Of a stretch of 64,000 nt of DNA, positions 7,617 through 51,638 are shown piece by piece. Positions within the stretch are counted from its first letter, which is position 1; each line of letters opens with the position of its first letter. A model generated the notes under the pieces. The model was not told the DNA's origin. It did no database searches and saw only the letters and a list, made by a program, of their open reading frames with translations. Source of the DNA: Azotosporobacter soli (GTDB lineage: Bacteria; Bacillota; Negativicutes; SG130); NCBI RefSeq assembly GCF_030542965.1, contig NZ_JAUAOA010000011.1, positions 1-64,000 on the forward strand, written 5' to 3'. The translations under genes and the position numbers were made by a program.

Positions 7617-8792
7617 ATGCTGAGCAGTGATGAAGAAAAAAAAGAGATAGATGAGATGTTTGAGAATGAAAGTGAAGAAGACCTAATAGAAGATGAAATA
7701 GCGGAATCGGATAGACGTCTTGTTACGACAGCTTATGATTTTATTGTTCGGTCACTGAAAGACCAGATTGCTGATGAGACTATTATTGTAGATGCAACAT
7801 GGCAAAGGAAGTACGTATGGGATGATATTAAAGCGAGTAAACTAATAGAGTCATTAATTTTAAATGTTCCAATACCAGTATGTTATTTTGCGGAAGAAGA
7901 AAAGTCGGGGCAATATTTGGTTATTGATGGACAACAGCGCTTATGGTCGATTTTTCGTTACTTGAACAATGAATTTTCACTTAGAGGATTAATAACGCTA
8001 GGCCATTTGAATAAAAAACGATTCCATGAATTGGACACGAAATATCAACGATTAATAAGTACTAGAGCAATTCGTTGCATTATATTAACAAGTGAATGTC
8101 ATCCAGAGTTGCGTTTTGATGTTTTTGAACGATTGAATTATGGGTCTGTTCCATTAAATCCACAGGAGTTAAGGCATTGCATTTATCGCGGAGCCTTTAG
8201 TGATCTATTGGCAAAATTAGTGGAAGATAGAACATGGCTTAATTTGATTGGAAAAAAAGAAAGTGACGAAAGACTTCGAGATCAGGAGTTAATTCTACGA
8301 TTTTTAGCATTGCATTTCAGGCTATCAAAGTATAAACCATCCCTCAAGACTTTTCTAAACTCGTTTATGAGAGATCATAAACGAATGTCGAAAAAAGATG
8401 AGACAGACTACAAGGCTCTTTTTGATCGCACAACAAGCAACTTGTGGAAAATGTTTGGTGAAAACGCATTTAGGCGACACGTGAAAAAAAGTGGTGAGGA
8501 GAGTTATGATAAAAATATAAACAAGGCATTATTTGATTTGCAAATGCTTGTAGCAAGCCATCTTGAAATAAATTGCAGTGATTTAAAAATTGCTAAAATA
8601 AGAGACGTATTTTTCCATCTAATGCATGATGATAAATTTATTGATCTGATTTTACGAGCGACGGATCACCGAACTCGTGTTGTAAGCAGATGTGAAATGC
8701 TTAGAGAAAAATTAATTGATAATGGGATAAAGATGGAAGAATTGTTTGAAAAAATTGAATCGATGTCAAAGTTGAGCGTGGAGGCCAACTAA
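7617..8792 (+). CDS. DUF262 (ParB/GmrS-like) domain protein
   Basis: The protein has 391 residues. An acidic N-terminal tail (about 35 residues) precedes a DUF262 domain: WQRKYVWD, then YLVIDGQQRL near residue 102, then FERLNYGSVPLNPQELR. DUF262 proteins share the ParB/sulfiredoxin-like fold and include the GmrS half of type IV restriction enzymes; the DGQQR motif is the catalytic-loop signature. There is no GmrD-type HNH domain at the C-terminus. A GAGAGGTG site precedes the ATG. The next gene starts 1 bp after its stop, so the two are translationally coupled and probably interact. Confidence 0.85.
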   Translation: MLSSDEEKKEIDEMFENESEEDLIEDEIAESDRRLVTTAYDFIVRSLKDQIADETIIVDATWQRKYVWDDIKASKLIESLILNVPIPVCYFAEEEKSGQYLVIDGQQRLWSIFRYLNNEFSLRGLITLGHLNKKRFHELDTKYQRLISTRAIRCIILTSECHPELRFDVFERLNYGSVPLNPQELRHCIYRGAFSDLLAKLVEDRTWLNLIGKKESDERLRDQELILRFLALHFRLSKYKPSLKTFLNSFMRDHKRMSKKDETDYKALFDRTTSNLWKMFGENAFRRHVKKSGEESYDKNINKALFDLQMLVASHLEINCSDLKIAKIRDVFFHLMHDDKFIDLILRATDHRTRVVSRCEMLREKLIDNGIKMEELFEKIESMSKLSVEAN

Positions 8793-8793
8793 A

Positions 8794-9510
8794 ATGTTTT
8801 ATAAGAGATCATATGCACTGCAAAAGTATCGCGGAAGACAGCGAGAAGTTTTTGGACTATTAAAGGTTTCCAGAAAAGCATATCCTGAAGTAACATTAAG
8901 AAACTTATCTGCGCTGAAACCAATATATCGTGGTGCAATAGTGTTACTTTATAGCCATTTAGAGGGCTATATTGAAGATGTGATTGAAGAAAGTGTGGAA
9001 TATCTGAATCGTGCTTGTATAAAATCAAATCAATTACCTGGACGGTTAAAGATTGCAAATTGTGAAAAAGTAATTGCAGAAATTAGCGCAACTACCGATC
9101 CAGTAAAAAAGGAACAATTAATCGAAGCTTTGATAATAAACAATTATCCTTTTTGGAGCGATGGAGAATTGCCACCGGCAAAGCTAGAGGCTGATTTTTT
9201 AACATCTGATTTTGCAAACCCATCGCCGAGGAAAATCGAAAAGCTGTTGAAGAAGATGGGGATTGAAAAAATTTTCAGTGAGATGTTTAATTTGGGTTTT
9301 AACAAACGTCGTGTAGGAACTTTAAGTACAAAGATAGAAGCTCTTGCAGAGATTAGGCATGATATTGCGCATGGGAATTTTGCTACGGCATGCACAGATG
9401 ATGATTTGATTGATTACTTAAAAAGCGTTAAACTTTTTTGTAGGTGCTTAGATGCGAAAATTGGATTGCATTTGGAAGAAATAACAAAAGAATTTCCTTG
9501 GAAAAACTAA
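8794..9510 (+). CDS. HEPN-domain protein (MAE_28990/MAE_18760-like)
   Basis: This 238-residue protein has an N-terminal helical block ending in LYSHLEGYIEDVIEES and a later RHDIAHG near residue 188. The R-x4-H spacing is the HEPN RNase signature. The YSHLEGY element is typical of HEPN proteins of the MAE_28990 type, which are known to occur next to DUF262 genes. Coupling to the DUF262 gene (1-bp gap) supports a toxin-like RNase controlled by its partners. Cleavage activity is an inference from the motif. Confidence 0.8.
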   Translation: MFYKRSYALQKYRGRQREVFGLLKVSRKAYPEVTLRNLSALKPIYRGAIVLLYSHLEGYIEDVIEESVEYLNRACIKSNQLPGRLKIANCEKVIAEISATTDPVKKEQLIEALIINNYPFWSDGELPPAKLEADFLTSDFANPSPRKIEKLLKKMGIEKIFSEMFNLGFNKRRVGTLSTKIEALAEIRHDIAHGNFATACTDDDLIDYLKSVKLFCRCLDAKIGLHLEEITKEFPWKN

Positions 9511-9560
9511 AGTCTTTATATAGTGTATTGGTAATTCAAGAAGATGATATAAAAGTAGGA

Positions 9561-9592
9561 GCGATTCCCAATTTGTTTTAAGGTTGGGTCGC
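9561..9592 (+). other. Stable hairpin after the HEPN gene
   Basis: GCGA and CCCAA (9561-9571) pair with TTGGG and TCGC (9584-9592), with a 2-nt bulge. There is no T tract, so it may stabilise the 3' end of the operon transcript rather than terminate it. Confidence 0.4.
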
Positions 9593-9693
9593 CAGAACTC
9601 GCATTAATATGGTATAATAAACATGGACGTAGGTTAAGAAACGCTAGTGTTTATGCGCGTAGCGAGGTTTTTGTTCCCTGTTAACTCATGGCT

Positions 9694-9739
9694 CTTCCCA
9701 AGCCGTGGGTCGAGGGTTCGAATCCCTTTGCCCGCTCCA
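9694..9739 (+). tRNA. 3' fragment of a tRNA-Gly(CCC) gene, attachment-site scar
   Basis: The sequence gives the 3' side of the anticodon loop (TTCCCAA), the 3' anticodon-stem strand GCCGT, a T arm (GAGGG-TTCGAAT-CCCTT), the acceptor strand GCCCGC, and TCCA. The matching 5' half (a GCGGGC start and D arm) is absent from the preceding 100 bp, so this is not a whole tRNA gene. Such fragments are left at the distal end of elements that integrate in a tRNA gene. A terminator follows, as after normal tRNA genes. The AT-rich island lies to the left. Confidence 0.75.
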
Positions 9740-9748
9740 GGAAAATGC

Positions 9749-9775
9749 AGACGTGACAAGAGTCGCGTCTTTTTT
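9749..9775 (+). terminator. Rho-independent terminator of the original tRNA gene
   Basis: A 9-bp stem AGACGTGAC/GTCGCGTCT (one G-T pair) with loop AAGA is followed by TTTTTT. Confidence 0.9.
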
Positions 9776-9789
9776 ATTAGGAGAGAGAA

Positions 9790-9957
9790 ATGAGCAGACA
9801 ACGACAAATTGCAAAGAAAGCCCAGAGCAAGAAACCGCAGGCGACCGACGAACCGCGTTCCTTCAAACAGACGATCGACGAGATGGAACCGATGCCGCTC
9901 TGGGCAAAGATCGTCGTCGTAATCTTGCTGGCGGGGCTGGCGTATAAGTTTTATTGA
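9790..9957 (+). CDS. Small single-span membrane protein
   Basis: This 55-residue frame has an ATG at 9790 preceded by GGAGAGAGAA. The first 35 residues are charged (SRQRQIAKKAQSKK); the last 20 form one membrane segment ending AYKFY. A terminator lies 8 bp after the stop, so it forms a one-gene unit between the tRNA scar and the channel gene. No family was recognised. Confidence 0.65.
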   Translation: MSRQRQIAKKAQSKKPQATDEPRSFKQTIDEMEPMPLWAKIVVVILLAGLAYKFY

Positions 9958-9964
9958 GAACGGG

Positions 9965-9999
9965 AAAAGACATGGCGCAGGGGTGCGGCCATGTCTTTT
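9965..9999 (+). terminator. Rho-independent terminator after the small membrane protein
   Basis: A perfect 12-bp stem AAAAGACATGGC/GCCATGTCTTTT (9965-9976, 9988-9999). The A-rich and T-rich ends make it usable in both directions. Confidence 0.9.
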
Positions 10000-10113
10000 C
10001 TGTTTAGCGAAACGCAAAAAGGCGGAAAAAAGGAATCGGGTGGGAATGGGTGGAATGAAGAATTTAGGAGAATAAATCACTTAAAAAGATGTTTGATAGG
10101 AGACGAGACTAAA

Positions 10114-10902
10114 TTGAATTCTTTTCTTTGTTTTCTTGAAAAATACCGCCTGCCGTATGATCTATTCATGGCTGCCTTAGCTTGTGTGATTATCACATCA
10201 ATGTTTGCGCAAAACCGCATAGAACTAAGCGAACAGGAACTGTTGTTGCTTAAACGGGCGGACTTCGTTATCTTACTGATCTTCACAGTGGATTACATCG
10301 TTCGTCTGCTCCTTGCAAAAGGCAAGATTACCTTCGTTCGAGAAAATATCATCGACCTAATATCGATCATTCCGTTTGATATGATGTTCCAGGGCTTGCG
10401 TGCTGTACGTCTTTTACGTGTTCTTTATATGTTGCGTCTGTTTGTTTACACGACGCGCTTGTTCAAACGCATAACCGTCGTGATCAAAACGAATGACTTT
10501 CATCACATTATCTGGTTCACCGCATCAACGATATTTTTTGGCGCGGTTGCCATATCGTATATTGAAGACATGGCGATTGATGACGCGCTGTGGTGGTCGT
10601 TTGTAACCACCACCACAGTTGGTTATGGCGACATCGCGCCCCAGTCAGGAGCCGGACGTCTTGTCGCAGTTTGCTTGATGCTGATCGGCATCGGCTTTCT
10701 CAGCACCTTGACCGGCACGGTTGCCACCTATTTTTTATCTCAGACAAAGAAGACATACAAACATGAAGCGGTCCAAAATGCTATTGAACGACTGCACGAT
10801 TTTAATTCACTCTCTGCTTCCGATCTACGAGAAATGAGCGCAGTTTTGATTGCCTTGAAAGAAAATGAAATGGAAGGGGAGGGTCAATATAAAAATAGGT
10901 AG
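10114..10902 (+). CDS. Voltage-gated-type potassium channel
   Basis: The protein has 262 residues from the TTG at 10114, which follows AGGAG by 11 nt. The frame is open up to 9991, but that start lies inside a terminator hairpin. Membrane segments S1-S4 occupy about residues 10-130, with an arginine-rich S4 (RAVRLLRVLYMLRLF). The pore loop carries the selectivity filter TTTVGYGD near residue 168, then S6. The short cytoplasmic tail lacks an RCK/TrkA-N domain. The family conducts K+ across the plasma membrane. It sits between an island boundary and defence-like genes; a defence role is only a possibility. Confidence 0.85.
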   Translation: MNSFLCFLEKYRLPYDLFMAALACVIITSMFAQNRIELSEQELLLLKRADFVILLIFTVDYIVRLLLAKGKITFVRENIIDLISIIPFDMMFQGLRAVRLLRVLYMLRLFVYTTRLFKRITVVIKTNDFHHIIWFTASTIFFGAVAISYIEDMAIDDALWWSFVTTTTVGYGDIAPQSGAGRLVAVCLMLIGIGFLSTLTGTVATYFLSQTKKTYKHEAVQNAIERLHDFNSLSASDLREMSAVLIALKENEMEGEGQYKNR

Positions 10903-10913
10903 GAGAGTTTAAT

Positions 10914-10996
10914 AAAAAAGAGACGACTTCGATGTGTTTCCCAAGGAATAAAGCTAAAGCGAGCAAGATAATCGAACGACAGAAGCGTCCATTAAC
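10914..10996 (+). repeat. Imperfect 80-bp direct repeat, copy 1
   Basis: It aligns with 13796-13876, sharing AAAAAAGA, TTTCGA/CTTCGA, GTTTCC, ATAAAG-TAAAGC-AGCA, ATCGAAC-AC and GCGTC-CATT/CCGTCCCATT blocks (roughly three quarters identical). Each copy can pair TTCGA with TCGAA around a central A-rich loop, while outer pairs differ between copies (GACG/CGTC here, AATGG/CCATT there). The two copies bracket the helicase-nuclease gene. Confidence 0.7.
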
Positions 10997-11022
10997 ACTA
11001 ACGAAAGGAACGATAAAGCAAA

Positions 11023-13755
11023 TTGAATCTTGAAAAGCATCTAATACTTGTAAAGGGCGAGGATAAGACAGAATCGATAAGCCGTTGCGTATATGAGAAG
11101 GGTAAATGGAAGATTGAATTTGGCAAAGAAAAGACGTATTCCTATGGCTATCAGAACGTTCAGTGGTATAGAAATCCCAATTCACTCGATCCGACAACAA
11201 GTGTTGTGTTTCAAAGCAATCAAGCTTTGAAAGGGATTGAAAAATTATTCGTTTTTGAAAAGCATGTGAGAATTTTTTTCGAGACAGGATTGAAAAAAAT
11301 ATATGAGCGGCATGAAATAACGCTTGAGCAAAACATCATTAGCAATCCTAAAGCTGGCAATTGCTTGGAATACCTCAAACAACTGGCGAAGATTGTTGGT
11401 GTTGCCAACGGGGAAGAAAGCAGCTTTCTATATAAGCAGTATGAAAAAATAACCTGCGTAACTTCAAACAGCGTATTGGCGCAATACCTAAATCCTGCCG
11501 CAATGAACAGGCCCTCAGGTGGGAGAATGCCGATATTCCCCTTCGGTTTTAATTTAAGCCAGAAAACTGCGACAGAAAATGCCTTGAACGAACAAATTAG
11601 TGTCATTGAAGGGCCGCCTGGAACCGGGAAAACCCAGACCATCCTAAACATTATCGCCAATGCAGTTGTTAATGAAAAAACAGTTGCCGTTGTTTCCAAC
11701 AACAATGCGGCAACTGCAAATGTTTTAGAGAAACTGGAAAAATACGGCGTGGCTTTTATAGCTGCATACCTAGGCAACAAAGAAAACAAAGAGAAATTTT
11801 TTGAAGGTCAACAACAGAACTATCCGGAGATGGCGACTTGGCTGATGGCTTCTCAAGAGTATGATGCCTTAGAAAAAGTGCTTGAGGCAAGTGGAAAAAA
11901 CCTGATGAAGATGCTTGAAGTAAAAAACACGCTGGCCGCTTTAAAACAAGAACGATCAGCATTCGGTGTAGAAAAAGAATATTTTAATACCTATTTTAAT
12001 GAAACAGGAGAAGAAATTTCAGCCTATCGTTCTTTATATAAGCACAAAGCAGACACTGTCATGGCGTTGTGGCTTGATTTTCAACAGCAGATAGAGAAAG
12101 ATACGGTTATAAAGCTGAAATATAAACTGAAAAATTTGCTGCGGTACGGTATTTTAAGTTTTTCCTTTTATGATAATTCAAATGAAACGATTATCGCTTT
12201 TTTCCAGAAGTTATATTATGAACGTAAGATGGCGGAATTAAACGAAAAAATTCAGGCGCTAACGGGGCTTCTCGATAGCTATCGCTTTGACAAAGCGATA
12301 GAAGAATACACAATGAACTCAATGCGGTTGTTCAAAGCAAAATTAGCGGAACGATTCTCCAAGAATACGCAGCGAAAATTGTTTTCCAATGAATCGTTAG
12401 GGAAATATTTCGGCGCTTTCGTTAAAGAATACCCGGTTGTTTTGAGTACGACACATTCTTTACGAGGCTGTGCCTCTCCGAACTATCTGTTCGACTATTT
12501 GGTTATCGATGAAGCGTCGCAGGTGGATATTGTTTCAGGAGCGTTGGCCCTGTCGTGTGCAAAGAATGCCGTCATCGTTGGTGATGTAAAGCAATTGCCT
12601 AATGTCGTATCGGGTGAAATTTCCGAAGAAACGGATCGGATTTTTGAAAGATATGAAGTAGACCTTGCATACCAGTATTCTGCGAACAGCATGCTTTCAT
12701 CAATTACGACGTTATTCAATACAGTTCCCAAAACATTATTAAGAGAGCATTATCGCTGTCATCCTAAAATCATTGGTTTTTGTAATCAAAAATTCTATAA
12801 TAAGGAACTTATTGTGCTGACGGAAGAAAAGGCGCAGCAAAAACCGCTGATTGTGTACAAAACAGCAAAAGGAAATCATGCAAGGCACAATTATAATCAA
12901 AGACAAATTGATGTGATAATGGAAGAAGTCGTGCCGGATCAGATTGCAAACAATACAGACCAATCCGTGGGAATCATTTCACCGTATCGACTGCAAGCGG
13001 ATAAACTTAATGAGGCTATTGGAAAACGGGACATTGAAGTGGATACGGTGCATAAGTATCAAGGACGCGAGAAGGATGTCATTATCCTTACAACCGTAGT
13101 AAATGAAATTAATGATTTCGTTGACAACCCCAATTTAATAAATGTAGCCGTTTCTCGCGCAGTGGATAAGCTGATTGTTGTTGTGTCAGACAATGAAAAA
13201 AATAGTAATTCTAATATTGGCGATCTAATAAGATACATTGAATACAATAATTTTGAGATTATTAACAGCAGCATCTACTCGGTGTTCGACTTGCTATATC
13301 ATAGCTATTCTGAACGACTGCTTGCAATCAGGAAAAATAAAAAGAACGTGTCTGCCTATGAGTCAGAAAATCTAATGAATGTCATAATCGAAAAGGTTTT
13401 AAATTCGCCAGAATTCCGCGAACTCGACCATGTAATCCATCAGCCCTTAAAAATGCTTATCCGAGACCTGAACAAGCTTGATGACGCTGAGCGTAGATTT
13501 GTTATGAATGCTTTAACGCATACTGATTTTGTCATCTTTAACAAGTTGGACAAAAGCCCTGTATTGGTTGTTGAGGTCGATGGATATGCATTCCACGCCA
13601 ATAATCCCAAACAGCTGAAGAGGGATAAAATGAAGGATACTATATTAGAGAAATACGGCATCCCGATTTTAAGAATCAAGACCAATGAAAGCGGCGAGGA
13701 AGGAAAGTTGCGCAACAAACTTATGCAGATTTTGAAGTTTAATGAAAAGCAGTAG
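11023..13755 (+). CDS. Superfamily-1 (UPF1/DNA2-like) helicase fused to a Vsr/DUF2726-like nuclease domain
   Basis: The protein has 910 residues starting at TTG 11023, about 12 nt after GAAAGGAA. Walker A GPPGTGKT lies near residue 198, Walker B VIDEAS near 494, and later motifs include GDVKQLP, REHYRCHP, VDTVHKYQGREKD and NVAVSRA. The C-terminus (about 825-905) has TDFVIF, PVLVVEVDG and ILRIKTNE, the layout of a PD-(D/E)XK fold of the Vsr/DUF2726 kind. Helicase-nuclease fusions of this shape are common in defence islands, where they unwind and cut DNA; this function is inferred. The gene stands alone between two direct repeats. Confidence 0.85.
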   Translation: MNLEKHLILVKGEDKTESISRCVYEKGKWKIEFGKEKTYSYGYQNVQWYRNPNSLDPTTSVVFQSNQALKGIEKLFVFEKHVRIFFETGLKKIYERHEITLEQNIISNPKAGNCLEYLKQLAKIVGVANGEESSFLYKQYEKITCVTSNSVLAQYLNPAAMNRPSGGRMPIFPFGFNLSQKTATENALNEQISVIEGPPGTGKTQTILNIIANAVVNEKTVAVVSNNNAATANVLEKLEKYGVAFIAAYLGNKENKEKFFEGQQQNYPEMATWLMASQEYDALEKVLEASGKNLMKMLEVKNTLAALKQERSAFGVEKEYFNTYFNETGEEISAYRSLYKHKADTVMALWLDFQQQIEKDTVIKLKYKLKNLLRYGILSFSFYDNSNETIIAFFQKLYYERKMAELNEKIQALTGLLDSYRFDKAIEEYTMNSMRLFKAKLAERFSKNTQRKLFSNESLGKYFGAFVKEYPVVLSTTHSLRGCASPNYLFDYLVIDEASQVDIVSGALALSCAKNAVIVGDVKQLPNVVSGEISEETDRIFERYEVDLAYQYSANSMLSSITTLFNTVPKTLLREHYRCHPKIIGFCNQKFYNKELIVLTEEKAQQKPLIVYKTAKGNHARHNYNQRQIDVIMEEVVPDQIANNTDQSVGIISPYRLQADKLNEAIGKRDIEVDTVHKYQGREKDVIILTTVVNEINDFVDNPNLINVAVSRAVDKLIVVVSDNEKNSNSNIGDLIRYIEYNNFEIINSSIYSVFDLLYHSYSERLLAIRKNKKNVSAYESENLMNVIIEKVLNSPEFRELDHVIHQPLKMLIRDLNKLDDAERRFVMNALTHTDFVIFNKLDKSPVLVVEVDGYAFHANNPKQLKRDKMKDTILEKYGIPILRIKTNESGEEGKLRNKLMQILKFNEKQ

Positions 13756-13795
13756 GTTTGTAATATTCGCAAGCGTGAACATCGCATTGACAAAT

Positions 13796-13876
13796 GAAAA
13801 AAGAATGGTTTCGACCGTTTCCTAAAGCATAAAGTTAAAGCAAGCAGGAAAATCGAACAACGGAGCCGTCCCATTG
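13796..13876 (+). repeat. Imperfect 80-bp direct repeat, copy 2
   Basis: Partner of 10914-10996 in the same orientation, starting about 40 bp after the helicase-nuclease stop. AATGG/CCATT and TTTCC/GGAAA can pair in this copy. A terminator follows at 13906. Confidence 0.7.
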
Positions 13877-13905
13877 TTTCTGGAGCAAATGAGTTTTGGG
13901 TAGCA

Positions 13906-13939
13906 AAGAGCGCCGAGCGTAAAAGTTAGGCGCTTTATT
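13906..13939 (+). terminator. Rho-independent terminator after the helicase-nuclease gene
   Basis: Stem AGCGCC/GGCGCT with flanking A and T runs, ending in TTTATTTT. Confidence 0.75.
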
Positions 13940-14023
13940 TTGCATGTGCGAGAGAGGAATATCGGCACAGAGCGGGAACTTTTAAACAGTGGGAATGTAA
14001 ACGGCGATAGGGGGAAGAGATAT

Positions 14024-14839
14024 TTGCAACGGTATATATCGAAGGAACTGACTCATTTTGTAGGGCGTGGATTGCCGACAGAAGAGGATAAATACAATTT
14101 ACTGGTGAAGATAATTCGCGGTGGCTGGCTAACATATCCTCCCCATGATAAGCAGGGGAAGCCACCGAAACTCACTTTTAAAAACGCCGTTCCTATTAAT
14201 GAGAAGGCATCTGGAGAGGGAAAATCGTTTGAGAAAGAATTAAGATTAAGGCGAAATATAAAAGCCACGAGCTTTGAAGACAATAACTTGTATAACGCGA
14301 ATATGGTTTGTTTTTGTGATATTCCGGTTGGCGACCTAGCGATACACATGAAAAAATATAGTGGATTTGGTCTTGCTTTCAATAAAGAACTGCTTGCGAA
14401 GAAAGGTGTAAGACCTGTGAATTACATTCCAATAGGGGCTAGAAATGTAGGAACAAGAGAACCCCTAGGGGGTTATTTAAATGAAATGGCGCGATTGGTG
14501 GAAAGTACAGCGGATCAATCTTCTTATCTAAGTAGAGCTGAAAGTGATTTTCCGGTCCAAGGAACAGAAATAAGTCTAGATCAAATAAAAGAAAACATTG
14601 AGAAAGGACGGCAACTGCTGCTATGGGAATGGTTTTCTTTTATCAAGTTTTTCGACGAATTACTGCCAGATGATGACGAGGGTAATTACTACTTTGAACG
14701 TGAGTGGCGTTCGCTGTATGATGTGGATTTTGCCTTTGCGGATATTAGGCGGATTATATTGCCAGAGGAATATGCAACCCGGTTTAGAGATGATCTTCCC
14801 GAGTACTGCGGGGAACTGGTTTTCAGCCATGTGCCGTAA
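14024..14839 (+). CDS. AbiGi-like abortive-infection protein
   Basis: The protein has 271 residues. The best start is TTG 14024, eight nt after AGGGGGA; the upstream in-frame start at 13940 overlaps the preceding terminator. The N-terminus RYISKELTHFVGRG and the block MVCFCDIPVGDLAIHMKKYSGFGLAF match the AbiGi (DUF2743) family, described as the antitoxin-side protein of the AbiG abortive-infection system. No AbiGii-like partner is visible on either side, so it is an orphan or acts alone. A repeat unit with a terminator starts right after the stop. Confidence 0.75.
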   Translation: MQRYISKELTHFVGRGLPTEEDKYNLLVKIIRGGWLTYPPHDKQGKPPKLTFKNAVPINEKASGEGKSFEKELRLRRNIKATSFEDNNLYNANMVCFCDIPVGDLAIHMKKYSGFGLAFNKELLAKKGVRPVNYIPIGARNVGTREPLGGYLNEMARLVESTADQSSYLSRAESDFPVQGTEISLDQIKENIEKGRQLLLWEWFSFIKFFDELLPDDDEGNYYFEREWRSLYDVDFAFADIRRIILPEEYATRFRDDLPEYCGELVFSHVP

Positions 14840-14929
14840 ACTATGCTGAGGACAAACAAGGAGACGGTTCCGCTGTTTCAAACGTTCTTTTCTCTTCCGT
14901 CTTATGAAAAATAATCTCGACCAATAAAA

Positions 14930-14968
14930 ATGCGGCAAACGGAGAAAAATCGTCTGCCTCATTTTTTT
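14930..14968 (+). terminator. Terminator at the head of repeat unit A
   Basis: ATG-GGCA-ACG pairs with CGT-TGCC-CAT around GAGAAAAAT and is followed by seven Ts. The same hairpin heads repeat units B and C. Confidence 0.8.
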
Positions 14969-14998
14969 GCGTCTTCGAAATCAGCGGCGTCCCTAATT

Positions 14999-15213
14999 CC
15001 CCGTCGTTGCGGTTTTTTCAGAACATGGAGTCCGAGGAAAGGCGGACATGGTTTGGCGGGCAAGAGCGTGGAGACGTACGACAGGGAGGTCGTACGCCGG
15101 TGGAGCAACAGGGAGGTTGCTTTCACCGGGAATGTCCGCGATCGCCGACCGCCAAGCCTTGGCCGATCCGACGGACGTGGTCGCTTCTGAAAAAATCGCG
15201 ACGACGAAAGGGG
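14999..15213 (+). repeat. 215-bp structured repeat, copy A
   Basis: One of three copies (others 17110-17324 and 18663-18877), each exactly 215 bp and roughly 90% identical. A long closing stem joins the ends (GTCGTTGCGGTTTTTTCAGA with TCTGAAAAAATCGCGACGAC, plus CCCC/GGGG). Inside are TTGGCGG/CCGCCAA, CGTGGA/TCCGCG, the hairpin CGTACGAC-agggag-GTCGTACG, and CCGGTG-AGCAAC/GTTGCT-CACCGG. In this copy the CCGGTG/CACCGG pair replaces CCGGCG/CGCCGG of the other two, a compensated change. The conserved unit is longer than the core: a terminator lies upstream and another at 15307-15345. Confidence 0.8.
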
Positions 15214-15306
15214 CATAGCTGTCGATAGAGGGAGGCAAAATCAAGTTGGATTTGCCGAAGCAAGCAAAATCGGTTTTGGTTTAAGCAGCATCGTTTACGA
15301 AAACGG

Positions 15307-15345
15307 GCAGCAAGATTTCCAAGTATGGCACTCTTGCTGCTTTTT
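15307..15345 (+). terminator. Terminator at the tail of repeat unit A
   Basis: GCAGCAAGA pairs with TCTTGCTGC and runs into TTTTT. An inner TTCCA-n4-TGG element is shared by all three units. Confidence 0.8.
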
Positions 15346-15413
15346 GCGTTGTGTGCGTAAAGATGAACGTGAGGAAGAATTTAGACTTTTTAGATTTTAA
15401 AAATTAAATAATA

Positions 15414-15441
15414 TTGACGAAAAAAGCAAACCGAATATAAT
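15414..15441 (+). promoter_or_regulatory. Sigma-70-type promoter
   Basis: TTGACG (15414-15419), 16-bp spacer, TATAAT (15436-15441), within an AT-rich stretch. No reading frame starts in the next 200 bp before a strong terminator. Confidence 0.8.
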
Positions 15442-15447
15442 ACAAGT

Positions 15448-15658
15448 ACGCAATACACTTTTCTTAAAGCAGCTGTATGTTTTGCCTAAAAGGGTAATTA
15501 ACGATTGCGGCAGTGTGCTTTGAAATCGCCAAGTTTTTTCTGTGAAAATTTTGATGCGGACGCGATGAATAACGATCTATATTTGGACACTTGGATCGTT
15601 AGGAGTAAATAGTGTAACCGGCCATACCATGACTAGTCATGGAGTGACCGGTTTTTTT
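15448..15658 (+). ncRNA. Candidate small RNA of about 210 nt, or a terminated leader
   Basis: The segment lies between a consensus promoter and a strong terminator and has no translatable frame with a ribosome site. Possible helices are CGCAAT/ATTGCG near the 5' end, GCG-gac-GCG, and AACGATC/GATCGTT before the terminator. The terminator lies 71 bp before the GGDEF gene, so the segment could also be an attenuating leader. It did not match 6S, SRP, tmRNA or the c-di-GMP-I riboswitch by eye. Confidence 0.55.
15616..15658 (+). terminator. Terminator of the candidate small RNA
   Basis: Outer stem AACCGG/CCGGTT and inner perfect palindrome CCATGACTAGTCATGG, followed by seven Ts. Confidence 0.9.
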
Positions 15659-15728
15659 ATATTTGATGAAGTGTTTCACGGGATAACAGAATTTTATTTT
15701 CAAAGGATTAATGAAGGGGGAAGGTAAC

Positions 15729-16991
15729 ATGTTTTCGTTGCTGCATATCGATAATAATTTTTTTTACAAGGAAATTCTGCGTGATTTATCTGAACAGAAT
15801 GATTTTCGATATTTCTCAGCCAAAACACCGCAAAAAGCATATGAGATTTTAGTTGCCCATGATATTGATCTTATTGTGACCGGACTGGAATTTAAAGGAG
15901 AAAATAAAGAACGCTTCATTTCCACGCTGATGCGCAAAAAAAGGGAGACGACACCGGTAATTGTTCTTTCGGCAATCAATGATATGAAGCTTAAAGCAGA
16001 GCTTTTCCAAAAGGGTATTTCCGATTATCTAACAAAAGATCACTTCATGGAGTATTTAATGACGCTGATCAAAAAAAATAAAGGGGGGGATGCGATTGCC
16101 GCAGAACTGCGAAACCTTTGGATTGCCGTTTTAGATGACAGTGTGATGCATCTGAATGGGATGCGCGCGTTTTTTGAACATAATGCGATGCCGCAGGTCG
16201 ATTATTTTATAAATCCGGCTGCACTTTTGACGACAGCCAAGACATACAATATTTATTTAATTGATAACGTTTTGCCGGATATTTCAGGTGAAGAAGTGAT
16301 TCGCGAAATTCGGAAACGGGATGAGTATGCGGTAATCATAGCGGTTTCATCGGTTAATAGTCATGCGGTTATTTCCAACATTTTAAGTAATGGTGCGGAC
16401 GATTATATTGTAAAACCATTTTCGGAAAATCTTTTTATGGCGCGTCTTAAAGCAAATGTTCGAACCTATTCGTTAATGCAGCAGTTAAAAGAAAAAAACA
16501 GGCTTTTGGCTCAAGTGGCGCAAGAAGATGGTCTTACCGGTCTTTATAATCGTCGTGCAATAATGGAAAGGTTAAACAGGGAAATCGATTTTGCGACACG
16601 CAGTAAAGAACCGCTTACGGTGCTGATGTTTGATATTGATCGCTTTAAAATGATTAATGATACCTATGGGCATCATTTGGGCGACGAGGTGCTCAGACAG
16701 TTGGGGCAGTATTTGAAGAACGCGTTTCAGAAAAATGTCATTACGGGACGGTATGGCGGAGAAGAATTCATTTGCGTTTTTCCAGGGCTTGCGCTTTCTG
16801 GCGCGGTCGTTTACGCGGAACGTCTTCGACGCGAATGTGGCGAAATGCGTTTTAGTGAAGACGCTCTTTCCATTACTGTCAGCGGCGGGGTTGCGGCATA
16901 TTCGGATGAAAACGCAGATGAATTTTTAAAACGGGTGGATGAGCTTTTATATAAGGCCAAAAAGAACGGGCGCAATCGAATGGAATACTAA
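15729..16991 (+). CDS. Response regulator with two receiver domains and a GGDEF domain
   Basis: The protein has 420 residues from the ATG at 15729, preceded by AAGGGGGAAGG; an in-frame ATG at 15711 lies upstream of that site. The first receiver domain (about 1-120) is degenerate: the phospho-acceptor position reads IVTGLEF with no aspartate. The second (about 130-250) keeps YLIDNVLPDISG and a PFSE switch lysine. The C-terminal GGDEF domain has RYGGEEF near residue 343, so diguanylate cyclase activity (2 GTP to c-di-GMP) is likely. No RxxD product-inhibition site precedes it. No histidine kinase is adjacent. Confidence 0.9.
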   Translation: MFSLLHIDNNFFYKEILRDLSEQNDFRYFSAKTPQKAYEILVAHDIDLIVTGLEFKGENKERFISTLMRKKRETTPVIVLSAINDMKLKAELFQKGISDYLTKDHFMEYLMTLIKKNKGGDAIAAELRNLWIAVLDDSVMHLNGMRAFFEHNAMPQVDYFINPAALLTTAKTYNIYLIDNVLPDISGEEVIREIRKRDEYAVIIAVSSVNSHAVISNILSNGADDYIVKPFSENLFMARLKANVRTYSLMQQLKEKNRLLAQVAQEDGLTGLYNRRAIMERLNREIDFATRSKEPLTVLMFDIDRFKMINDTYGHHLGDEVLRQLGQYLKNAFQKNVITGRYGGEEFICVFPGLALSGAVVYAERLRRECGEMRFSEDALSITVSGGVAAYSDENADEFLKRVDELLYKAKKNGRNRMEY

Positions 16992-17041
16992 AGCGATTCT
17001 TTTTTCGTTGCTCGTATGAAAAATAATGTCGATTAATAAAA

Positions 17042-17078
17042 GGAGGCAAACGGAGAAAAATCCGTCCGCCTCCTTTTT
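17042..17078 (+). terminator. Terminator at the head of repeat unit B, after the GGDEF gene
   Basis: GGAGGC and ACGGA pair with TCCGT and GCCTCC around GAAAAA, followed by TTTTT. Confidence 0.9.
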
Positions 17079-17109
17079 GCGTCTTCGGATGCAGCGGCGT
17101 TCCCTGACT

Positions 17110-17324
17110 CCCCGTCGTTGCGGTTTTTTCAGAACATGGAGTCACAAGGCATGGCGGACATGGTTTGGCGGGCAAGAACGCGGAGACGTACGACAGGGAG
17201 GTCGTACGCCGGCGGAGCAACACGGACGTTGCTTTCGCCGGGAATCTCCGCGAGCGCCGACCGCCAAGCCTTGGCCGGCCCGAAGGACGTTGTCGCTTCT
17301 GAAAAAATCGCGACGACGAAAGGG
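17110..17324 (+). repeat. 215-bp structured repeat, copy B
   Basis: Same length and fold as copies A and C. Here the inner stems are CGCGGAGA/TCTCCGCG and CCGGCG/CGCCGG. The first small hairpin (GTCCG/CGGAC in A and C) is altered around 17142-17158. The conserved flanks run from the head terminator to the tail terminator at 17427-17465. Between about 17381 and 17426 the sequence differs from the other two units. Confidence 0.8.
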
Positions 17325-17426
17325 ACGTAGCTGTCGATAGAGGGCAGCACAATCAAGTTTGATTTGCCGAGGTAATCAAAATTTTGTTTGATCGGCGGCG
17401 ATCGGTATCAGCGAGTACAACAGTTG

Positions 17427-17465
17427 GCAGCAAGGATTCCAAGCGTGGAAACCCTGCTGCTTTTT
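17427..17465 (+). terminator. Terminator at the tail of repeat unit B
   Basis: GCAGCAAGG/CCCTGCTGC with inner TTCCA-AGCG-TGGAA, then TTTTT. Confidence 0.85.
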
Positions 17466-17667
17466 ACGTTGCGCAAGCGAGCGGAGAAGCAAGGTAACGG
17501 TTCGAAGCCACTGAAAACGATCTGATTGGCATTCCTAAAGTCAGGGGCCATTTAAATTATCGTGGATGATGAACGTATCTACGTGAATGCCGATACACAG
17601 GAAATGCACAATGGAAATAAGCGTTCCTTGGCTATGTCGGCCAAAATAAAATTTAGGGGGAATTTAC

Positions 17668-18486
17668 ATGTCTTACAATTCAAATTTACCAGTGGACAAT
17701 ACAGCCGATATTCGGGAAAACTTTCGGGCGCTCAAAGATGACAAGATTGTTGCGGCGGCTACGGCGATTACTGCTGAGAGTGCTGAAAAATTAGCAAATG
17801 CAAGAAAAATATCTCTTAAGGGGGATGCTACGGGTAGTACAAATTTTGATGGTTCGGCAGATGTGACGATCAGCGTAGATGTAGTTAGCGCGGATGTTTC
17901 GTCTTCATGTACCGGCAATGCTGCAACTGCAACAAAGTTAGAAACAGCACGAAATATTAATGGCGTATCCTTTGATGGCACAAAGGATATTACGATTAGA
18001 GCAGAAGCTGACGGTGGGAATGCGGATACTGTAGATGGGAAACATGCGAGTGATTTTGTATCCGCTGGATATGGTGTCCCGGTTGGTTCGGTGGTATATC
18101 TTGCACAGCAATCCGCACCAGAGGGGTGGTTAAAAGCTGATGGCTCAGCGATTTTAAGGACACAGTATGCTGATTTATTTACCGCAGTTGGTACTATGTT
18201 TGGCGCTGGTGATGGCAGCACTACATTTAACTTGCCAGACCTTCGTGGTGAATTTGTACGCGGATTTGATGATGGACGTGGAATTGATGGTAATAGAGCA
18301 TTGGGGAGCTGGCAGAATGATATGTTGCGATCACACCAACATACATTTCCAGCAGGCGATGTGTCTGGCGGACCTGCATTGCAGGCTAATAGGACAATTG
18401 GATATAATACAGCGCACACTACTTTTGTTGGTGGTGAGGAAACGCGTCCTCGTAACATAGCACTGCTAGCTTGTATTAAATATTGA
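17668..18486 (+). CDS. Phage tail-collar / tail-fibre-like protein
   Basis: The 272-residue protein follows an AGGGGGAA site. Residues 1-125 contain tail-fibre-type repeats (ARKISLKGDATGSTNFDGS and ARNINGVSFDGTKDI). A tail-collar domain follows (VPVGSVVYLAQQ, APEGWLKADGS, FNLPDLRGEFVRGFDDGRG, SWQNDMLRSHQH), ending ETRPRNIALLACIKY. In phages this domain caps receptor-binding fibres. No other phage structural gene is nearby, so it is either a stranded fragment of a prophage or tailocin or a reused adhesin. It lies between repeat units B and C. Confidence 0.85.
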   Translation: MSYNSNLPVDNTADIRENFRALKDDKIVAAATAITAESAEKLANARKISLKGDATGSTNFDGSADVTISVDVVSADVSSSCTGNAATATKLETARNINGVSFDGTKDITIRAEADGGNADTVDGKHASDFVSAGYGVPVGSVVYLAQQSAPEGWLKADGSAILRTQYADLFTAVGTMFGAGDGSTTFNLPDLRGEFVRGFDDGRGIDGNRALGSWQNDMLRSHQHTFPAGDVSGGPALQANRTIGYNTAHTTFVGGEETRPRNIALLACIKY

Positions 18487-18594
18487 TCAAAGAACGGAAC
18501 ACAACTGTCAAAAGGGCAAACAAGGGGATGGTTCCGATGTTTCAAACGTTCTTTTCTCTTCCGTCTTATGAAAAATAATGTCAGCCAATAAAAG

Positions 18595-18631
18595 GGAGGC
18601 AAACGGAGAAAAATCCGTTTGCCTCCTTTTT
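18595..18631 (+). terminator. Terminator at the head of repeat unit C, after the tail-collar gene
   Basis: A perfect 13-bp stem, GGAGGC plus AAACGGA pairing with TCCGTTT plus GCCTCC, loop GAAAAA, then TTTTT. Confidence 0.92.
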
Positions 18632-18662
18632 GCATCTTCGGATGTAGCGGCGATCCCTGACT

Positions 18663-18877
18663 CCCCGTCGTTGCGGTTTTTTCAGAACATGGAGTCCGAG
18701 GAAAGGCGGACATGGTTTGGCGGGCAAGAGCGTGGAGACGTACGACAGGGAAGTCGTACGCCGGCGGAGCAACATGGACGTTGCTTTCGCCGGGAATCTC
18801 CGCGAGCGCCGACCGCCAAGCCTTGGCCGACCCGATGGACGTTGTCGCTTCTGAAAAAATCGCGACGACGAAAGGGG
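18663..18877 (+). repeat. 215-bp structured repeat, copy C
   Basis: Third copy. Units A and C also share a longer 5' extension (from about 14853 and 18516: CAAACAAGG, GGTTCCG, GTTTCAAACGTTCTTTT and CTTATGAAAAATAAT). Inner stems are CGTGGAGA/TCTCCGCG and CCGGCG/CGCCGG. The tail terminator is at 18966-19009. Confidence 0.8.
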
Positions 18878-18965
18878 CGTAGCTGTCGATAGAGAGAAGT
18901 ACAATCAAGTTTGATTTGCTGAAGCAAGCAAAACCGGATTTGTTACAAGTCACAGCCTTTATAAC

Positions 18966-19009
18966 AAAAAGCAGTGAGGCTTCCAAGCGTGGAAACTTTG
19001 CTGCTTTTT
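18966..19009 (+). terminator. Terminator at the tail of repeat unit C
   Basis: AAAAAGCAG pairs with CTGCTTTTT with the inner hairpin TTCCA-AGCG-TGGAA also seen in units A and B. Confidence 0.8.
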
Positions 19010-50470: not shown

Positions 50471-50618
50471 GATCGCTAAGCGGACATTGCATTTTCTCGT
50501 GCGCTGTGAAGCTTGAAAATAAATGCGTGAATCTAGGCGTGAACCTCGCTGCTGCACCAGAGAGTGCCGCAGAAGTAAAACGTTGCATAAGTTTATACCT
50601 TGGCAGGAGGTAGCAGAA

Positions 50619-51638
50619 ATGAAAAAAGTGAAAGTCGAAGATGCGGTGGGGATGGTGCTCGGACACGATCTGACGAAGGTCGTGCCGGGCAGCTACAAAG
50701 GGCCTGCGTTTCGCAAAGGTCATATCGTGCGTGAAGAAGACATCCCGCACCTGAAAGATATCGGCAAAGAGCATATTTATCTCTTCGAACTGGGCGATAA
50801 GAAACTGCATGAAGATGATGCGGCGCTGGCGATCGCGCAGGCGGCGGCCGGGGCAAGGATCGAATGCGCGCCGCCGTCGGAAGGCCGCGTCAATCTCAAG
50901 GCGCAGGCGGACGGCTTGCTGAAGGTGAATCGCAGCGCGGTCGATGCTGTCAATAATGTCGAGCACATCGCGCTGTCGACGCGGCACAGCAACCAGCTGG
51001 TCAAGGCCGGGGACGTAGTGGCGGCGGTGAAGATCATTCCGCTGGTCGTCGATAAGGCCGCGGTGCAGGGCGTCGAGGCGAACCTGAAACGGTACGGCGA
51101 AGTGCTGGCCGTGCATCCGTTGGCAAAACTGAAAGTGGCGGCCGTGATCACCGGCAATGAAGTCTTTTACGGGCGGATCGAGGATCGTTTTGCAAAGCAG
51201 ATCGCCGACAAGGTCGCCTTCTACGGCGGCGTGCTGCAGGAGACGCTGTATCGGCCGGACGATCCGGCGCAGATCGCGGAAGCGATCGTGAGCTGCCGCG
51301 CCAACGGGGCTGAGATCGTCATCGCTTCGGGCGGCATGTCGGTGGACCCGGATGATGTGACGCCGGAGGCGATCCGCGCGACCGGCGCGGATGTCGTGAC
51401 GTATGGCACGCCTGTCCTGCCGGGTGCGATGTTCATGCTGGCTTATCTGGAAGAGATCGCGATCATCGGTCTGCCGGCCTGCGGCATGTTTGCGAAGACG
51501 ACGGTGCTCGATCTCGTCCTGCCGCGCATTTTGGCCGGCGAACGGCTGAGCAAAAACGATATCGTCTCGCTCGGTTACGGCGGACTGTGCAGCCAGTGCG
51601 AGCAGTGCGTCTATCCGCATTGCCCGTTCGGCAAATAA
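50619..51638 (+). CDS. Molybdopterin-binding protein (MoeA/MogA-like)
   Basis: The protein has 339 residues from ATG 50619 behind GGAGG; the longer frame from 50523 lacks a site. VAAVITGNEVFYGRIEDRF, IASGGMSVDPDDVTPEAIR and GLPACGMFAKTTVLDLVLPR form the molybdopterin-binding MoCF fold. The N-terminal 160 residues resemble those of proteins found next to molybdenum hydroxylases. The last residues CSQCEQCVYPHCPFGK form a four-cysteine cluster. It probably handles molybdopterin loading. A 148-bp gap separates it from yqeC. Confidence 0.85.
   Translation: MKKVKVEDAVGMVLGHDLTKVVPGSYKGPAFRKGHIVREEDIPHLKDIGKEHIYLFELGDKKLHEDDAALAIAQAAAGARIECAPPSEGRVNLKAQADGLLKVNRSAVDAVNNVEHIALSTRHSNQLVKAGDVVAAVKIIPLVVDKAAVQGVEANLKRYGEVLAVHPLAKLKVAAVITGNEVFYGRIEDRFAKQIADKVAFYGGVLQETLYRPDDPAQIAEAIVSCRANGAEIVIASGGMSVDPDDVTPEAIRATGADVVTYGTPVLPGAMFMLAYLEEIAIIGLPACGMFAKTTVLDLVLPRILAGERLSKNDIVSLGYGGLCSQCEQCVYPHCPFGK

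Follow-up and report, generated by a model that had tools for sequence, protein, structure and literature searches.

Three copies of a structured repeat downstream of unrelated genes

The stretch of DNA analyzed here, referred to as the window, comprises 64,000 nucleotides of Azotosporobacter soli (assembly GCF_030542965.1, contig NZ_JAUAOA010000011.1) and contains three copies of an intergenic repeat, each following a different protein-coding gene. The cores of approximately 220 nt share one branched fold and are located on the forward strand at 14996..15215 (copy 1), 17107..17326 (copy 2), and 18660..18879 (copy 3), 3′ of genes for an AbiGi antitoxin (PF10899), a response regulator-GGDEF protein (PF00990), and a phage tail collar protein (PF07484), respectively. 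In all three cases the gap to the same-strand upstream gene was 116 to 174 nt. A previous inspection of the letters without database searches (the sequence-only reading) had proposed three such repeats and named the same three genes; a DNA repeat search of the window recovered the copies at the positions given there, and the domain assignments agreed with the gene identities. Homology between the copies spans approximately 300 nt (14990-15289, 17102-17401, and 18654-18953; 79 to 91% ungapped identity), and the cores, taken as approximately 230 nt, are mutually 91 to 95% identical. Covariance model matches of copies 1, 2, and 3 scored 238 bits (E = 4.6e-60 in its own genome), 237 bits, and 244 bits, respectively.

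Related terminator-like segments flank the homologous stretch on both sides of all three copies. Upstream, intrinsic-terminator hairpins were assigned to ~14927-14967 (copy 1), 17038..17078 (copy 2, + strand), and ~18590-18630 (copy 3), belonging to repeat families D2 and I1; the downstream counterparts at 15307-15346, 17427..17465 (+ strand), and 18971-19009 (repeat families D3, I2, and I3) are followed by a T-run, with folding energies of −16 to −17 kcal/mol. Longer duplicated stretches (repeat family D4) also surround copies 1 and 3.

Conserved fold and covariation

The repeats have the properties of a structured RNA family. The core of copy 1 consists of a long stem, a three-way junction, and two hairpins with GGA loops; its predicted folding energy was −121.8 kcal/mol, and that of copy 2 was −123.2 kcal/mol. 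Copy 3 folded with −124.1 kcal/mol versus −82.5 ± 4.8 kcal/mol for dinucleotide shuffles (z = −8.6), and its reverse strand folded less well (−99.7 kcal/mol, z = −6.3). The end-to-end closing stem suspected from the letters is present with 21 bp (alignment columns 7-27), and the inner helices outnumber those described from the letters, comprising a lower arm as well as a three-way junction that bears two apical hairpins. The stem changes between the window copies that had been cited in support of a fold do preserve pairing.

Covariation across many genomic copies, proposed at that stage as a check, was strong. In an alignment of 28 copies fitted to the structure (A3; mean identity 60%, lowest 41%), two-sided changes were observed in 59 of the 69 base pairs, and 90.8% of the cells were able to pair. 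The covariation score was 0.602 compared with 0.210 for shuffled alignments (reached by 0 of 500), and slid controls gave values of at most 0.134. An independent MAFFT alignment (A1) agreed, with two-sided changes in 33 of 69 pairs and a score that also exceeded all shuffles. G-U cells outnumbered A-C cells (117 versus 51) in favor of the strand carrying the GGA loops, and the consensus fold was better on this strand (−87 versus −70). Both observations point to RNA, or to single-stranded DNA, of the GGA-loop strand as the folded species.

Invariant GGA loops

Two hairpins, H1 and H2, emerge from a three-way junction at the tip of the element. In the window, H1 is located at 15074..15096, 17186..17208, and 18738..18760 of copies 1, 2, and 3, with loops AGGGAG (GGA at 15085), AGGGAG (GGA at 17197), and AGGGAA (GGA at 18749), respectively. 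H2 follows directly at 15097..15129, 17209..17241, and 18761..18793, with loops AGGGAG (GGA at 15112), ACGGAC (GGA at 17224), and ATGGAC (GGA at 18776). All features were on the + strand, and for each window copy the minimum-energy fold left no GGA unpaired other than the two in the loops, which are 27 nt apart.

Across the 28 aligned copies, GGA was present in 28 of 28 H1 loops and 27 of 27 H2 loops (55/55), one copy being devoid of the second hairpin. The entropy was zero at all three GGA positions of both loops and the preceding A was nearly fixed, while the N positions of the loops varied freely (1.25 to 1.7 bits) and the stems averaged 0.95 to 1.2 bits with compensating changes. The loop-closing pair was C-G in 28 of 28 H1 and in 25 of the 26 H2 hairpins for which both letters were available. 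In total 222 GGA motifs were counted versus 146 ± 8 in shuffles. An ANGGAN hexaloop and the consensus RUACARGGAUGU, obtained by systematic evolution of ligands by exponential enrichment (SELEX), are published recognition elements of the RNA-binding proteins RsmE/CsrA (PMC7652899). The loops of the repeat fit the C-G-closed ANGGAN hexaloop and are close to the SELEX consensus.

Several copies elsewhere in the genome carry inserted extra hairpins with GGA loops (contig C8, 62356-62631(−); C18, 49730-50005; C14, 77246-77479(−); C4, 43865-44130(−) and 50614-50882(−)). One example is GCGCC[ATGGAT]GGC, and the insertions give the impression that sites of the CsrA type are being gained.

Copy number and genomic surroundings

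A first DNA search revealed more copies on other contigs, and a covariance model (R1) was then built from nine copies. It gave 30 full-length strong matches; together with two weaker ones confirmed by a second model (R2), the genome contains at least 32 scattered copies. They are intergenic and dispersed in all orientations. Almost all copies have a pyrimidine-rich start in common, and 23 of 28 carry a conserved 3′ tail motif (ATCAAGTTnAATTTGC) 24 to 27 nt past the core. In the window the tail motif is located at 15239..15255 (copy 1, AATCAAGTTGGATTTGC), 17351..17367 (copy 2), and 18903..18919 (copy 3). A peptide-coding function of the tail was considered and rejected by inspection, as start codons and ribosome sites differ between copies. 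Terminator-like hairpins were found downstream of 15 of 28 copies versus 3 of 28 in shuffled sequences. Identical copies 1,106 bp apart occur at contig ends (L024, 10554-10776 and 11660-11882; also L025, 95-318), where they adjoin a T-box leader and valS, and the assembly breaks within the repeat.

The alternation of the repeats with three mutually unrelated genes, including a defense gene, and the longer duplicated stretches around copies 1 and 3 would fit a recombination or cassette module of integron or IStron/HEARO type, by which accessory genes are captured. The sequence-only reading had left the choice between such a module and a structured RNA family; only the latter part stood. Comparison with the Rfam models for HEARO/omega, group II, and integron RNAs gave no match, and the attC core pair (RYYYAAC ... 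GTTRRRY) was found at the ends of 0 of 28 copies. Most other copies flank single ordinary genes, among them glmS, valS, and genes for a HIT protein, an H+-pyrophosphatase, and major facilitator superfamily transporters, and on contig C21 (66836-67710) three copies lie in tandem and enclose nothing. We consider a cassette function highly improbable. Identification of the repeat as an integron cassette, HEARO, group II RNA, or riboswitch was accordingly rejected; the sole Rfam match was a separate cyclic di-GMP-II riboswitch.

The location of the window copies, 116 to 174 nt past same-strand genes and between terminator hairpins, would also fit cis-acting elements of 3′ untranslated regions or terminators. 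Each copy would then recruit CsrA, which is known to act in cis on mRNAs, or RNase III to its own transcript and control stability or read-through of the upstream gene, here those for AbiGi, the GGDEF protein, and the tail collar protein. A co-oriented upstream gene was present for 17 of 28 copies, a proportion no different from random orientation, and the upstream gene faced the opposite direction for the other 11. Moreover, the upstream terminators would exclude the element from the mRNA, and the neighboring genes share no function. A role in cis thus appears improbable, if less so than gene capture.

The cyclic di-GMP-II riboswitch at 15549-15632 (68 bits, gathering threshold 53.5) lies 3′ of copy 1 and in front of the gene for the response regulator-GGDEF protein (15711-16991). 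From this arrangement, cyclic di-GMP would control a gene for its own synthase. Upstream of the repeats, a defense-like cluster (7617-14839) encodes a GmrSD_N/NsnA-like protein, a RiboL-PSP HEPN protein, an ion channel, an Mko-like helicase with DUF2726, and the AbiGi antitoxin. The riboswitch, the GGA loops, and the approximately 29 further genomic copies go beyond what the letters of the window had initially revealed.

Relatives in other genomes and relation to TwoAYGGAY

The covariance model R2, built from the copies of this genome, was used for a search of 398 genomes of the phylum (E ≤ 0.001). Matches, either full length or restricted to the apical 72 nt, were obtained in 40 genomes. Twelve of these were searched more thoroughly and contained 6 to 71 matches each; among all genomes examined, copy numbers ranged from 6 to more than 80. 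GGA was present in both loops of 33 of 34 remote matches, a count that is partly circular because GGA is part of the model, although the stronger matches would have stayed above the threshold without it. The remote matches showed stem covariation of their own (66 of 69 pairs). In two genomes (G302 and G451; L115, L117), the apical twin-GGA domain is repeated in tandem, with a unit length of approximately 280 to 300 bp.

Many R2 loci, with R2 E values down to 1e-13, also match the Rfam family TwoAYGGAY (RF01731), a member of clan CL00106, and relatives in other genomes (L132, L127, L116, L129, and L124) reached its gathering threshold. As a control, Escherichia coli CsrB was assigned to RF00018 of the same clan. 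RF01731 gave no match to the window copies up to E = 5, and among 20 loci of this genome that hold other copies, its best score was 32.1 bits (gathering threshold 43). A 2010 list gives TwoAYGGAY as a probable RNA, and as probably not cis-regulatory (PMC2864571); its binding to CsrA was predicted by Gardner and Eldai (PMC4333381). Judged by the shared fold and the model matches, the apical domain is a variant of this known, uncharacterized RNA rather than a new category, one whose copies in this genome are missed by Rfam.

The same class yielded only one weak partial match (55 nt) among 299 further genomes; the family is therefore patchy. A plain-DNA search for close relatives in 99 other genomes gave none, and three exact 20-mer hits in genome contigs of unrelated phyla were taken as chance. 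Similar DNA was absent from 72,556 plasmid and 50,697 phage records, and three hits in viral contigs had no covariance model match, so that no element was detected there. A phage or plasmid origin was rejected on these grounds.

CsrA in the host and across the phylum

The genome contains two csrA and two fliW genes. The CsrA encoded next to fliW retains the RNA-binding residues L4 and R44 (MLALTRR...VKIYRGEIY); the second, divergent csrA is located far from the flagellar cluster (C30:7873-8022, L028). Directly downstream of the fliW-adjacent csrA lies flaG, whose start codon is within a GAC-ATGGAT-GTC hairpin (L035, C2 ~262175), a plausible candidate CsrA target within the csrA-fliW cluster.

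Among the 398 genomes, csrA (PF02599) was present in 39 of the 40 RNA-positive versus 246 of the 358 RNA-negative genomes (Fisher p = 1.3e-5). The lone RNA-positive genome without csrA is 63% complete and has a borderline RNA match. At the level of families, csrA was found in 24 of 24 versus 84 of 117 (p = 8e-4). Since the csrA search uses no information on the RNA, this co-occurrence provides independent support for a link to CsrA.

Signs of mobility in a related lineage

In a genome of family f98 (G545), approximately 80 copies in 2.4 Mb take the form of a ~260-bp element resembling miniature inverted-repeat transposable elements (MITEs), with sharp ends (TCAGACTGTAGACAAA...TTTGTCAACAAACTGA) and imperfect 16-bp inverted repeats. 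Each copy is bordered on both sides by the same terminator-like hairpin, which differs from site to site (L157-L176, L178-L197). The flanking duplication was above the 99th percentile of mismatched-locus controls for 18 of 20 and 15 of 16 copies (33/36), as expected from insertion into a terminator with target duplication. Duplicated flanking terminator hairpins were also present in a second genome of the same family (G670). No transposase linked to the G545 elements was found. A search for an autonomous transposon yielded 20 extra left ends, 17 of them with the H1-type GGA motif, but none extended by way of a right end to a transposase-sized element (open reading frames not annotated).

In the genome of the window, target duplication was observed in 0 of 25 copies tested and inverted ends were not visible; here it is the dispersal of the copies alone that suggests mobility. 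An IS200/IS605-type TnpA gene lies closely downstream of one copy, and an apparent TnpA 3′ end closely downstream of a second, possibly by chance (L088, L095; C14:77.6k, C2:403k).

These properties may be read as those of selfish MITE- or REP-like repeats, whose hairpin would be a DNA signal recognized on single-stranded DNA by a trans-acting transposase and whose likeness to CsrA sites would have no cellular role. The intergenic positions in all orientations, the ~80 copies in G545 with sharp ends and imperfect inverted repeats, 33 of 36 of them between duplicated terminator hairpins, and the lack of a promoter signal all fit this view, and the covariation could stem from an evolving master copy. 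Against it stand the loops, which keep the exact ANGGAN pattern read by CsrA, with freely varying N positions and closure by C-G, and the presence of csrA in 39 of 40 genomes. Furthermore, all lineages have the GGA domain in common, but ends and duplications are lineage-specific (0/25 in the window genome), and the homologous RNA is assigned by Rfam to the CsrB clan. We regard a purely selfish nature as unlikely, albeit more credible than control in cis.

Discussion

The repeats probably constitute a dispersed, multicopy RNA family acting as CsrA decoys. A family that is partly mobile and represents a variant of TwoAYGGAY unrecognized by Rfam in this genome is the best explanation of the data. 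In the proposed mechanism, the long closing stem would present the two ANGGAN loops, 27 nt apart, at the three-way junction, where a single CsrA dimer could bind both through its two RNA sites. Enough copies would have to be transcribed, either by read-through from neighboring genes or from unrecognized promoters. Transcripts bearing copies would then soak up CsrA, and its mRNA targets would be released. CsrA binding, transcription, and titration are all predicted here from sequence and structure.

Several observations weigh against a decoy function. Each window copy exposes only two unpaired GGAs, far below the 22 GGAs of CsrB, and the stems exceed those of typical SELEX-derived CsrA ligands in length. 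The best sigma-70 promoter scores upstream of 28 copies were not above those of shuffled sequences, and the upstream gene of 11 of 28 copies is oppositely oriented. The csrA association was controlled for phylogeny no further than at the level of families, and differences in genome size or completeness may confound it.

The CsrA-sponging small RNAs reviewed so far are from Gammaproteobacteria, and Firmicutes have been described as using the protein FliW instead. The prediction of CsrA sponges in Clostridia made in 2015 for TwoAYGGAY appears not to have been tested in the literature searched. It now gains independent support from the conservation of the loops versus the covariation of the stems and from the co-occurrence with csrA. 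The family is far larger than thought, multicopy, and tied to mobile elements that duplicate terminators. What is new about it is that this genome holds a divergent, multicopy form, that many families carry it in high copy number, that it is associated with csrA, and that a mobile carrier duplicates terminators; no paper on these features was found in a search that covered few subscription journals. A more far-reaching idea is that mobile MITE-like repeats of Firmicutes carry CsrA-decoy RNA as cargo and multiply in or near terminators, so that the copy number of a transposon would determine how active a global regulator is; this could be a domesticated small RNA system or a selfish manipulation of the host. 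We put this forward tentatively and with more doubt than conviction. If true, transposition would set the copy number of the sponge, which would be a novel mode of adjusting a global regulator.

Among known mobile elements, IS1272 (IS1182 family) transposes into inverted-repeat stem-loops; its published description gives an inverted repeat-replacing mechanism rather than duplication (PMC5678879), and the elements studied here are without a linked transposase. MITEs and REP/BOX/RUP repeats are likewise short, noncoding, multicopy, hairpin-forming, and dispersed, and the G545 element shares with MITEs the imperfect inverted ends and target duplications. Unlike MITEs and REP sequences, the repeats carry a strongly conserved RNA domain of protein-binding type, and the duplicated target in G545 is a whole terminator hairpin. 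With CsrB/CsrC and RsmX/Y/Z of Gammaproteobacteria, which sequester CsrA, they have in common the GGA hairpin loops and the Rfam clan. CsrB is encoded by a single gene, has approximately 22 GGAs, is transcribed from its own promoter, and undergoes regulated decay, whereas the repeats have two exposed sites per copy, dozens of copies, and no recognizable promoter, in a host that has the antagonist FliW. The closest likeness is to TwoAYGGAY, reported from Clostridiales and typed 'Cis-reg' in Rfam, with which the repeats share two neighboring hairpins with A-N-GGA-N loops. They differ from it in that the closing arm is much longer, a conserved 3′ tail is present, and the copies, at least 32 in number, are dispersed.

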